NCBI GenBank assembly: GCA_022510505.1
Contig: JAFLTL010000011.1
Location: 1-64,000, forward strand
Origin: Muribaculaceae bacterium
GTDB lineage: Bacteria > Bacteroidota > Bacteroidia > Bacteroidales > Muribaculaceae
DNA length: 64,000 nucleotides
Direction: 5' to 3'
The translations under genes and the position numbers were made by a program. Shown piece by piece: positions 59,742 through 63,220 of the stretch. Position 1 is the stretch's first letter; each line of letters begins with the position of its first letter. The notes below the pieces were generated by a model that saw only the letters and a program-made list of their open reading frames with translations, was not told the DNA's origin and ran no database searches.

Positions 59742-62075
59742 ATGGACGATTATCTGGCTCAATTAAACCGGCAACAACGCGAGGCTGTCCTTTGGCTCGA
59801 CAGCCCCCAGCTTGTCATAGCTGGAGCCGGATCGGGCAAAACCCGTGTGCTGACCTATAAGATAATCCACCTGCTCGCCAAAGGCTACAAACCGTGGCGC
59901 ATAATGGCTCTCACCTTCACCAACAAGGCAGCGCGCGAGATGCGCGAGCGAATCGATGCCCTGGTGGGCGATGAGGTGAGCAAGCGGTTGTGGATGGGCA
60001 CCTTCCACTCCATCTTCCTTAGAATCCTGCGTTCCCATTCCGAAAAAATCGGCTACCGAAAGGATTTCACCATCTACGATGCCGACGACTCCAAGGCCTT
60101 GGTCAAGACTATCATCAAAGAGATGAACCTTGACGACAAGATTTATAAAGTCTCGTCAGTTTTGGGAGCTATCTCCGCCGCAAAGAACGCTTTGATTTCT
60201 CCGGCTGCCTATGCTGCCGATAAAGACATTCGTGACCAGGACTTTCGCTCACGTCGCCCGTTGATCCATCGCATCTACGACACCTATCAGCGTCGTTGCT
60301 ACATGGCCAACGTCATGGACTTCGACGATATCCTGTTTTTCACGAACATGCTGTTGCGTGACTGTCCCGAGATTCTCAACCATTACCGCGAATATTTCCA
60401 ATACATCCTGGTCGATGAGTATCAGGACACTAACTTCGCCCAACATGCAATCATCAGGCGTCTGACGGAAAATCAGACCAATCTTTCGGTTGTTGGCGAC
60501 GATGCCCAGAGCATCTACTCATTCCGTGGTGCCAACATCGGGAACATTCTCAACATGCAGAATGTCTACCCCGACCTGCGCATCTTCAAGCTCGAGCAGA
60601 ACTATCGTTCCACAAAGACAATCATCGAGGCTGCCAACTCCCTGATATCAAAGAACACACGTCAGATTCCAAAGCAGATCTTCTCAAAAAACGAGGATGG
60701 AAAGCCCATCGAGATAATAAAAAGCTACAGCGACTTCGAGGAAGGCTACCTGATCGCCAACCGAATCAGCCAGATGAAACTCTCATCCCACGATTCCTAT
60801 AGCGATTACGCCATCCTCTACCGCACAAACGCCCAGTCGCGAACCCTCGAGGAATCGCTGCGCAAGCGTAATATCCCTTATCGTATCTACGGTGCACTTT
60901 CTTTCTATCAGCGCAAGGAAATCAAGGATGCCATCGCCTACTTTCGTCTCGTTGTGAATCCCTCCGACGAGGAAGCCTTCCGGCGCATCATCAACTATCC
61001 GGCTCGGGGTATCGGTGAAACCACCGTTTCTAAAATCAGCGATGCGGCCACCATCGGATCCACATCCTTGTGGAATGTCATCAACGATCCCTCGACCTAT
61101 TCGCTGAATGTCAACTCGGGCACACGTCGCAAGCTCGAGGGATTCGCCAACCTTATTCGTGAATTCATCGAAGCAAATTCAGGCGGCATGAATGCCTACG
61201 AACTCGGCGAGCTGATAATTCGCAAGACTCAGATTCTGTCCATACTCCTGAGCGACCGCACTCCCGAGAGCATTTCTCGCCAGGAGAACCTCCAGGAACT
61301 CCTCAACGGCTTGCGCACCTTTGTCCAGAATCGCCTTGAAGAGGGTGAAACCGAGAGCATCTCGATGAGCGACTTCCTCTCGGAAGTCTCCCTCGCCACC
61401 GACTTCGAACGCAATGAAAACAACGATGGCGAAGCCGTCTCGCTGATGACCGTTCACTCTGCCAAAGGATTGGAGTTCAAGAACGTCTGTATTGTAGGTG
61501 TAGAGGAGGACCTTTTTCCGGCCATGCTCTCCACGATGTCGTTCGACGATATCGAGGAGGAGAGGCGCCTGCTTTATGTTGCCATCACCCGAGCGAAGAA
61601 ACAATGCATTCTCTCCTATGCCGCATCTCGCTACCGCAACGGCCAGACCACCACATGCTTCCCTTCGCGGTTCCTGCGTGATATCGATAGCCGCTATCTC
61701 CGGGAAGCCGGAACCACCAGCAGTCTGACATCCAATTTTGATACCTGGGATAGGAGTCCTCAAGTCTTCAGGCCGGCAAGTTTTCAGGGCGGCAAGTCTT
61801 CAGGGGGGCAAGTCGGCAAGTCGTCAAGTCGTAATGAAAACTCGAAGACTCGACAACCTGAAAACTCTACGACTCTAAAGCCTGATGACGGCTACAGTCT
61901 ACACGAGGCCGGAGAGTTGAAAGTTGGCATGAACATCGAACACAACCGGTTCGGACGCGGACACATCGTCTCCATCGACCGGTCGAGCACCGACGATCGA
62001 ATCGTGGTGTCATTCTCCAATGTCGAGACCAAAACGCTCCTCCTCAAATTCGCTCGCTTTAAAATCGTCGATTAA
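59742..62075 (+). CDS. uvrD: UvrD/PcrA-type DNA helicase
   Basis: Superfamily 1 helicase for repair and replication restart. The 777-residue product has the Q-motif LNRQQREAV, Walker A AGAGSGKT (27-34), motif Ia ALTFTNKAAREM, motif II VDEYQDTN (about 224-231), VVGDDAQSIYSFRGA, EQNYRS, MTVHSAKGLEF and EERRLLYVAITRAKK. Near residues about 674-714 a linker is encoded by tandem repeats (61761-61832). The C-terminal part has a GMNIEHNRFGRGHIVSID segment as in UvrD/PcrA tails. The start follows the DUF4250 gene by 26 nt; its TAA overlaps the nspC ATG by one base. Confidence 0.95.
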   Translation: MDDYLAQLNRQQREAVLWLDSPQLVIAGAGSGKTRVLTYKIIHLLAKGYKPWRIMALTFTNKAAREMRERIDALVGDEVSKRLWMGTFHSIFLRILRSHSEKIGYRKDFTIYDADDSKALVKTIIKEMNLDDKIYKVSSVLGAISAAKNALISPAAYAADKDIRDQDFRSRRPLIHRIYDTYQRRCYMANVMDFDDILFFTNMLLRDCPEILNHYREYFQYILVDEYQDTNFAQHAIIRRLTENQTNLSVVGDDAQSIYSFRGANIGNILNMQNVYPDLRIFKLEQNYRSTKTIIEAANSLISKNTRQIPKQIFSKNEDGKPIEIIKSYSDFEEGYLIANRISQMKLSSHDSYSDYAILYRTNAQSRTLEESLRKRNIPYRIYGALSFYQRKEIKDAIAYFRLVVNPSDEEAFRRIINYPARGIGETTVSKISDAATIGSTSLWNVINDPSTYSLNVNSGTRRKLEGFANLIREFIEANSGGMNAYELGELIIRKTQILSILLSDRTPESISRQENLQELLNGLRTFVQNRLEEGETESISMSDFLSEVSLATDFERNENNDGEAVSLMTVHSAKGLEFKNVCIVGVEEDLFPAMLSTMSFDDIEEERRLLYVAITRAKKQCILSYAASRYRNGQTTTCFPSRFLRDIDSRYLREAGTTSSLTSNFDTWDRSPQVFRPASFQGGKSSGGQVGKSSSRNENSKTRQPENSTTLKPDDGYSLHEAGELKVGMNIEHNRFGRGHIVSIDRSSTDDRIVVSFSNVETKTLLLKFARFKIVD
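61761..61832 (+). repeat. In-frame tandem repeat inside uvrD
   Basis: Three 16-bp units (61761-61776, 61777-61792, 61793-61808; each CAAGTyTTCAGGsssG) are followed by three 8-bp units CAAGTCGG/CAAGTCGT (61809-61832). Downstream 61850-61875 carries sequence complementary to the units, with CCTGAAAACT (61857-61866) opposing AGTTTTCAGG (61779-61788). Neither unit length is a multiple of three, but three copies of each keep the frame. The encoded stretch is a Ser/Gly-rich linker. Confidence 0.8.
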
Positions 62076-63220
62076 TGAAACTCGAGCTCCCTACACCTTG
62101 TTTTGTCATCTACGAAGAGAAGATCGACCGCAATCTTGAGCTGATCGACCGGGTTCGTCACGAAGCAGGCGTGGAGATTGTAATGGCGTTCAAAGCCAAT
62201 GCGGTTTGGCGCACCTTCGAGTTGTTGCGTCATCGCGGTTTTGGGTTTGCGGCCAGTTCCTTGAACGAGTTGCGCCTTGGCTACGAGGAACTGCATCGCC
62301 GCGGTCACACCTACTGTCTGGCTTATAAACCCGAAACATTCGGCGAAGTCCTCGCCATGAGCTCCCATCTCACCTTCAACAGCATAACCCAGTGGGAACA
62401 GTTCCGGGGCAAGATTGATGCGTGGAACACTACCCATCCCGACAGTCACGTATCACCCGGACTACGCGTCAACCCGCATTGCAGTGTTATTGAAACCGAT
62501 CTCTATAACCCGGCCCTACCGGGGTCCCGCTTCGGTGTGGCAGCGGCCGATCTCGCCGAATTGCCTCAGGGTATTGAGGGACTGCACTTCCATCAGCTGT
62601 GTGAGTCCTCCTCGGCCGACCTCGAGAAAGTTCTGGATGCCTTCGAGAGCTCCTTCGGTCATCTTCTGCCGGCTGTCGAGTGGGTAAACATGGGTGGCGG
62701 CCATCTCATGACGCGTGAGGGCTACGACATCTACCACCTTGTGAAACTGCTGCGAGGTTTCCGTGAGCGCTATCCCCAGATAAGTGTTATCCTCGAACCC
62801 GGGAGCGCCTTCATGTGGCAAACCGGTGACTTACTGGCCACAGTTATGGATGTCGTTGTTAACGATGGTGTGGCTACTGCCATCATCGACGCTTCATTCA
62901 CCTGTCACATGCCCGACACCCTCGAGATGCCCTATAAACCCGCCATTGCCGAGGCCCTTCCCGAAGGTTCCTGCGGCCACAGCTACACCCTTGGGGGAAA
63001 CTCCTGCCTCAGTGGCGACTACAAAGGCGAATGGACCTTCGCCGAGCCGTTGAAGCCGGGCGATCGGCTGACATTCCGCGACATGAACCACTACACAACC
63101 GTCAAGACCACTATGTTCAACGGCCTCGACCATCCGTCGATTGCCATTGTCAGGAGTAACGGTACGGTTGAAATCCTTCGGCAATTCACCTACGACGACT
63201 ATAAATCCCGCATGTCATGA
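62075..63220 (+). CDS. nspC: Carboxynorspermidine decarboxylase
   Basis: PLP-dependent decarboxylase of the alternative spermidine/norspermidine route, converting carboxy(nor)spermidine to (nor)spermidine. The 381-residue product has the PLP lysine K40 in MAFKANAV, the HFHQLCES segment, GGGHLMTREGY, EPGSAFMWQTG and the late CLSGDYKGEW motif, of the alanine-racemase-fold group IV type. Relatives DapF/LysA differ at the HFHQLCES and CLSGD motifs. The ATG overlaps the uvrD TAA by one base and its TGA overlaps the next ATG by 4 nt. The partner dehydrogenase gene was not seen. Confidence 0.93.
   Translation: MKLELPTPCFVIYEEKIDRNLELIDRVRHEAGVEIVMAFKANAVWRTFELLRHRGFGFAASSLNELRLGYEELHRRGHTYCLAYKPETFGEVLAMSSHLTFNSITQWEQFRGKIDAWNTTHPDSHVSPGLRVNPHCSVIETDLYNPALPGSRFGVAAADLAELPQGIEGLHFHQLCESSSADLEKVLDAFESSFGHLLPAVEWVNMGGGHLMTREGYDIYHLVKLLRGFRERYPQISVILEPGSAFMWQTGDLLATVMDVVVNDGVATAIIDASFTCHMPDTLEMPYKPAIAEALPEGSCGHSYTLGGNSCLSGDYKGEWTFAEPLKPGDRLTFRDMNHYTTVKTTMFNGLDHPSIAIVRSNGTVEILRQFTYDDYKSRMS

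Follow-up and report, generated by a model that had tools for sequence, protein, structure and literature searches.

The UvrD/PcrA-type helicase gene in the 64,000-nt stretch of Muribaculaceae DNA analysed here (hereafter the window) contains, in frame, an inverted repeat built from an octamer that is dispersed through the same genome, chiefly between genes, and that is absent from the helicase genes of relatives. We consider it likely that this repeat is a genic copy of the dispersed intergenic element, captured by the linker between the helicase core and its C-terminal Tudor domain, where it most likely acts as a passive spacer at the protein level. The features on which this account rests are as follows, numbered from the first position of the window.

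59742–62075, plus strand: UvrD/PcrA-type helicase gene, 777 aa
61753–61760, plus strand: degenerate outermost unit GGAGTCCT, in octamer phase and within a 3-mismatch match
61761–61808, plus strand: left arm, three 16-bp units of two octamers each
61809–61832, plus strand: left arm, three 8-bp units, matching the octamer pattern with 1 mismatch
61835–61885, minus strand: right arm, inverted octamers, minus-strand match to the octamer pattern with 1 mismatch
61796–61864, minus strand: match of the helicase copy to covariance model R1 (see below), 39.7 bits, E 1.6e-5 genome-wide
61923–62054, plus strand: Tudor domain PcrA_UvrD_tudor (Pfam PF21196), residues 728–771, E 3.5e-6

Pfam places UvrD-helicase at residues 8–276 (E 1.7e-83) and UvrD_C at residues 283–628 (E 4e-78), so that the core domains end at residue 628; the top NCBIfam match, pcrA, falls under its cut-off (741.6 of 911.2 bits). 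The repeat encodes residues 674–715, between the core and the Tudor domain, and the latter remains in frame downstream. The stop codon of the helicase gene and the start of the gene after it (381 aa) overlap at 62073–62077, which suggests coupled translation of the two; the product of the downstream gene is a putative carboxynorspermidine decarboxylase. Binding to RNA polymerase is reported to be governed by the Tudor domain (PMC7585439; PMC5397179; PMC8318588).

A first-pass annotation of this DNA had described three 16-bp and three 8-bp units followed by complementary sequence able to fold back, and a direct reading bears this out, with the units at 61761–61832 and the inverted arm after them. 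The 16-bp units begin at 61761, 61777 and 61793 (CAAGTCTTCAGGCCGG, CAAGTTTTCAGGGCGG and CAAGTCTTCAGGGGGG) and the 8-bp units at 61809, 61817 and 61825 (CAAGTCGG, CAAGTCGT and again CAAGTCGT); in place of the CAAGTC core attributed to all of them, the middle 16-mer carries CAAGTT. On the minus strand, the right arm at 61839–61860 reads CAGGTTGT CGAGTCTT CGAGTT, and the best inverted pair (61754–61785 with 61844–61875) is 72% complementary. The label ‘Ser/Gly linker’ approximately fits the residues encoded by the left arm, but in those of the right arm Asn, Thr, Lys and Pro abound. No other tandem repeat in the window is as strong (Tandem Repeats Finder scores of 89, 87 and 67, against no more than 44 elsewhere). 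Self-identity at a lag of 16 bp, measured over 72-bp stretches, is 0.80 at the repeat (window mean 0.25, sd 0.06), a value reached in the 64 kb only by the stretches starting at 61760 and 61761.

The reading frame is kept because nine octamers make up 72 bp. Computed cases confirmed the frame arithmetic proposed earlier: when 8 or 16 bp are lost or duplicated, translation stops after 694–714 residues, short of the Tudor domain that starts at 728, and a change of 24 bp preserves the frame. Length change thus shifts the frame by computation, as in phase-variable repeats, and slippage among the octamers could remove or restore the Tudor tail, leaving part of the population with a helicase unable to bind RNA polymerase; such a switch would have meaning because of the role reported for that domain, and one perfect octamer doublet is present. 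However, slippage normally needs long perfect tracts and the octamer units have diverged (lag-8 identity 0.58). The Tudor tail is, moreover, retained in 81 of 82 homologues, the remaining one being cut by a contig end, and most of the octamer family lies outside genes, in places with no reading frame to disturb. We regard phase switching as very improbable, and the copy-number switch of the tail suggested by the first-pass annotation finds no support in the diverged units and the retained tail.

Evidence for a dispersed family came from searching the genome that contains the window (2.14 Mb, 55 contigs, 91.75% complete) with a degenerate three-octamer string, CRAGTYNTCRAGTYNTCRAGTY, with the reversed pattern as control. 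At up to 3 mismatches, the pattern gave 87 matches against 2 for the control, and at up to 1 mismatch, 25 against 0. The 87 matches group into 28 clusters, counting the window’s own, and 19 of these contain a match with no more than 2 mismatches. With gene context judged by long open frames, 16 of the 19 lie outside genes, two are in frame within genes and one (C17:11885), close to the start of a 167-codon open frame, is ambiguous. The other nine clusters have 3 mismatches at best, a cut-off at which about two chance matches are expected: three lie within long frames (C2:43321, C5:7130 and C4:26889) and are probable chance matches, and six lie outside them (C5:37212, C24:13148, C24:13267, C34:1232, C37:4219 and C45:40346). 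A count that kept the six and left out the three would be skewed towards intergenic sites, and the genic count is therefore restricted to the 19.

The family consensus is CRAGTYNT. Complete copies run from left octamers through a short centre, such as CAAGATTATCTTG, to right inverted octamers; several copies are single-armed, and the ends differ from copy to copy. The helicase element, with tandem CRAGTYNT octamers and several matches at 1–3 mismatches, belongs to this family and is joined to other element loci by exact stretches of up to 18 bp: its right arm has the 18-mer ACTCGACAACCTGAAAAC in common with a locus on contig C34 (L132), whereas the best stretch for the reversed element is 13. 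The earlier suggestion of an intragenic mobile repeat therefore holds to the extent that the octamer family occupies 19 places (28 at up to 3 mismatches), mostly outside genes; that copies have moved is probable on this distribution.

The same genome contains a second family of short units, heptamers of the form AGTTCYT, for which a search allowing up to 1 mismatch gave 30 matches and no control match; its loci include C12:64805–64949, C10:17534–17587 and C54:7114–7132. At C54:7114 the heptamers directly adjoin an octamer hairpin, and 7-bp AGTTTAC-like units occur in the flanks of some octamer arrays.

A simple local tandem duplication in a low-complexity linker, unrelated to other sequences, would account for some of these observations. 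The 16-bp unit occurs nowhere else in the genome at 0–1 mismatch (at 2 mismatches, there are 8 other places against 2 control matches), and the linker is of ordinary length. The 8-bp units, both arms and the long exact stretches are, however, common to other loci; the helicase genes of 82 homologues contain no match to the octamer pattern; and local tandem duplication alone would not yield an inverted arm of the octamer unit. The first-pass annotation had proposed a genome search for both units and had taken a lack of other copies as the mark of simple local duplication: copies of the octamer were found, mainly intergenic, and argue against that reading, but the 16-bp unit had none at 0–1 mismatch. 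Local duplication is thus disfavoured and improbable as an account of the whole element, and is retained for the tripled 16-bp sub-unit, since the absence of that unit elsewhere points to local tripling of one octamer pair.

REPs are likewise dispersed palindromes, mostly intergenic, with a genic minority, and have already been described within UvrD/REP helicase genes and other repair genes; the survey that lists them in such helicase genes of other bacteria (PMC3733652) favours the reading that the element is a classical REP, inserted in the helicase gene by a REP-associated Y1 transposase. One Y1 transposase match exists in the genome. However, REPs are described there as palindromes of 20–40 bp tagged GTAG or CGTC (PMC3733652), whereas the octamer family is an array of variable length with no fixed tag; position 7 of the unit, the base that would complete CGTC, is T in 42, G in 39, A in 9 and C in 6 of 96 units. 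Even with 5 mismatches allowed, the 3.3-kb locus of the Y1 (RAYT-like) match contains no octamer triple, and its gene is bordered on both sides by a different palindrome; the association is thus lacking in this genome, which at 91.75% completeness may be missing a transposase gene. With no fixed end tag in the consensus and no octamers in the Y1 neighbourhood, a REP mobilised by a RAYT is disfavoured, and we give it little credence.

The Y1 locus itself (L174, C19:17337–17678 plus flanks), the sole such match, has the palindrome CCCCGCACGCAAGCGT(A/G)CGGGG on both sides of the gene and GGGCGCGACATGTCGCGCCC twice downstream of it, and is possibly a REP system of its own.

The inverted layout was examined with a covariance model, R1, trained on eight complete intergenic hairpins, neither coding copy being included. 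The genome-wide search, in which 150 of 685 first-look candidates were scored, returned at least 46 matches at E up to 10. Both strands of the helicase copy matched, as is appropriate to an octamer unit with an inverted second arm: the minus-strand match listed above reaches E 4.7e-7 when the window is searched alone, and the plus strand scores 36.9 bits (E 7.3e-5 genome-wide). In the consensus hairpin from the alignment of the eight intergenic copies, each octamer contributes seven pairs and one mismatch, and 86.8% of cells pair across those copies.

Such a hairpin might act in the helicase mRNA or DNA, for example by causing a pause during which the core folds ahead of tail synthesis. The sequence at 61753–61890 folds better than 197 of 200 shuffles both as DNA (z −2.5) and as RNA (z −2.4); the RNA value is, however, only −1.4 once 25 bp of flank is added on each side. 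Across the eight training hairpins, the covariation score was not above shuffles (it was reached by 62 of 500), and none of five pairing measures stood clearly above them (62 to 100 of 500). Folded singly, 6 of 25 elements (C2:43321, C5:7130 and C4:26889 excluded) had z of −2.0 or lower. No Rfam family matched at E up to 1 within 61400–62400, and the homologues’ helicase genes, as noted, lack the element. A functional RNA hairpin was rejected on the covariation and single-element folding results, and an acting hairpin of either kind seems highly unlikely. Pairing falls to 25–53% when the arms are slid by 1–3 columns, as expected for arms of one unit, and the use of that unit in both arms may by itself be enough to give the hairpin. 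The arms look as if each had been drawn independently from a single degenerate unit, a pattern more in keeping with copying than with a selected RNA.

The setting of the element in the protein is one in which a captured repeat could be accommodated. In an alignment of 83 proteins—our own and 82 homologues—the linker of the window’s helicase is 99 aa long (median 98, range 67–151), and a net insertion relative to relatives was rejected on this ordinary length. Among 81 homologues, identity has a median of 0.57 for the core and 0.43 for the tail but 0.10 for the linker, which is hypervariable and probably disordered; the repeat thus sits where sequence is free to vary. The nearest helicase homologues found are only 62–65% identical in protein, and for this reason the insertion event itself is not seen but inferred.

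We compared the composition of the helicase copy with that of intergenic copies, for which we tabulated 21 elements (leaving out C2:43321, C5:7130, C4:26889, C5:37204, C45 and the two coding copies). G+C is 0.51 in the helicase copy and 0.58 in its left arm, against 0.39 in the intergenic elements and 0.52 in the whole gene. Open frames number 6 of 48 in the eight complete intergenic hairpins and 45 of 126 over all 21 elements, many of them single-armed; the helicase copy is open, and direct reading finds CGA or CTA where canonical units give an in-frame TGA. Its mean hydropathy of −1.42 lies about 1.4 sd from that of translated intergenic copies (−0.40, sd 0.72), the lowest intergenic frame being lower still at −2.57. 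We read the higher G+C, the lost TGA positions and the hydrophilic residues as probable adaptation after capture, with drift towards the gene’s own G+C as an alternative.

The second in-frame element, at C5:59717–59776, was matched by R1 on the plus strand (49.5 bits, E 6.9e-8), although held out from training like the helicase copy. It lies near the N-terminus of a gene that starts at C5:59603 and within which contig C5 ends. The last 55 bp of C5 (59837–59891) recur unchanged at the end of contig C3; C5 and C3 are therefore likely to be adjacent and to carry one gene of more than 700 codons, about 640 of them on C3. Pfam has no family for the product; the first 96 aa have no match in 58 other genomes of the family, and the 638-aa part on C3 has one weak match (20% identity, E 4e-11) in 118 other genomes of the order. 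As RNA, this copy folds no better than shuffles (z +0.2).

Among close relatives the octamer is scarce. A survey of 149 genomes of the family, including our own, found matches at up to 1 mismatch in three, the other two with one match each; three congeners (62, 87 and 71% complete) had none at that cut-off, and two congener helicase loci had none at up to 3 mismatches. With up to 3 mismatches allowed, the loci around 80 homologues (680 kb) gave four matches, each lying upstream of the helicase match, against one control.

Across the order, nine of 393 genomes, again including our own, match the octamer pattern. Five distant ones, from three other families, are enriched, with 168, 49, 34, 14 and 6 matches against 0 controls; the remaining three have 2, 1 and 1 matches against 3, 3 and 1 controls. 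We looked at 34 loci from four enriched genomes (three of them from the richest, G320) and three from single-match genomes, which together hold 41 arrays. Five of the 41 are spanned by an open frame of 150 codons or more, and in each at most 36 codons lie on the shorter side of the array; within the limits of this partial sample, internal genic copies such as that in uvrD thus seem to be exceptions. Two loci of one distant genome (L146 and L253; G419, contig C119) carry arrays of a related octamer, GGCTTGAA, one of them near the edge of an open frame.

The reversed control, representing YTGARCTN-type octamers, is itself enriched in five genomes of the order (G505, G442, G250, G267 and G302) and one of the family (G020); in G505 and G442, which have no forward matches, it gave 17+5 and 2+11 matches. 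Octamer families of other sequence evidently also arise, which argues against a single common origin of the arrays across the order.

One of the closest published parallels is provided by heptamer repeats such as TAACTGA, described as intergenic direct repeats in Beggiatoaceae, Cyanobacteria and five Bacteroidetes (PMC4679880). As far as that account goes, they resemble the octamers in having tandem units of 7–8 bp in many sets in some genomes, mostly intergenic, in being patchy across species and spread by no known mechanism, and in having some copies in or overlapping genes, mostly outside regions of assigned function; genic copies of heptamer arrays are described in a Beggiatoaceae genome (PMC4679880). 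They differ in unit length and sequence, and most TAACTGA sets in the main genome studied are direct repeats that immediately precede start codons (PMC4679880), whereas complete octamer copies join both orientations into hairpins and their units vary at fixed positions. Rickettsia palindromic elements (about 150 bp, ten families, 44 gene integrations in R. conorii) are reported in frame within unrelated genes (PMC10969869; PMC3733652). The helicase copy behaves like them, as an in-frame palindrome in a conserved gene with intact domains on both sides; in this comparison, which is by description, the octamer family differs in its unit and in having 2 of 19 places genic. The BrickBuilt MITE of Porphyromonas gingivalis, with 19 copies in strain ATCC 33277, is likewise a dispersed element with tandem units in the Bacteroidales (PMC4596501). 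Palindromic repeats within genes, including UvrD/REP helicase genes, are thus already described, on the evidence of the REP survey (PMC3733652). The octamer hairpin family did not appear in our searches of open-access full texts, in which a single paper, on yeast, contains one of the strings.

Capture by the linker would have proceeded from a family residing mainly between genes, one copy of which landed in, or grew within, the variable and probably disordered stretch between core and Tudor domain. That copy would have survived if the array, from the outset or after some change, was free of in-frame stops and kept the gene in frame. Subsequent changes—more G+C, TGA replaced by CGA or CTA, hydrophilic residues—could have merged it into the linker, and one 16-bp octamer pair would then have tripled locally. 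We identified neither a mobilising enzyme nor a common element end for the octamer family. An undescribed process might copy octamer arrays into hairpins, spread them in single Bacteroidales lineages and occasionally seed in-frame linkers; we think this rather unlikely, but, if true, it would account for patchy, lineage-specific families and would have seeded new linker sequence in a repair helicase and one further gene.

Taken by itself, the helicase offers nothing out of the ordinary. The wider interest lies in the route by which non-coding repeats can come to encode protein: a conserved repair enzyme accommodates one in its variable linker, which makes such linkers natural entry points for new sequence, and the patchy amplification of the octamer family across a single order raises the question of what copies it.
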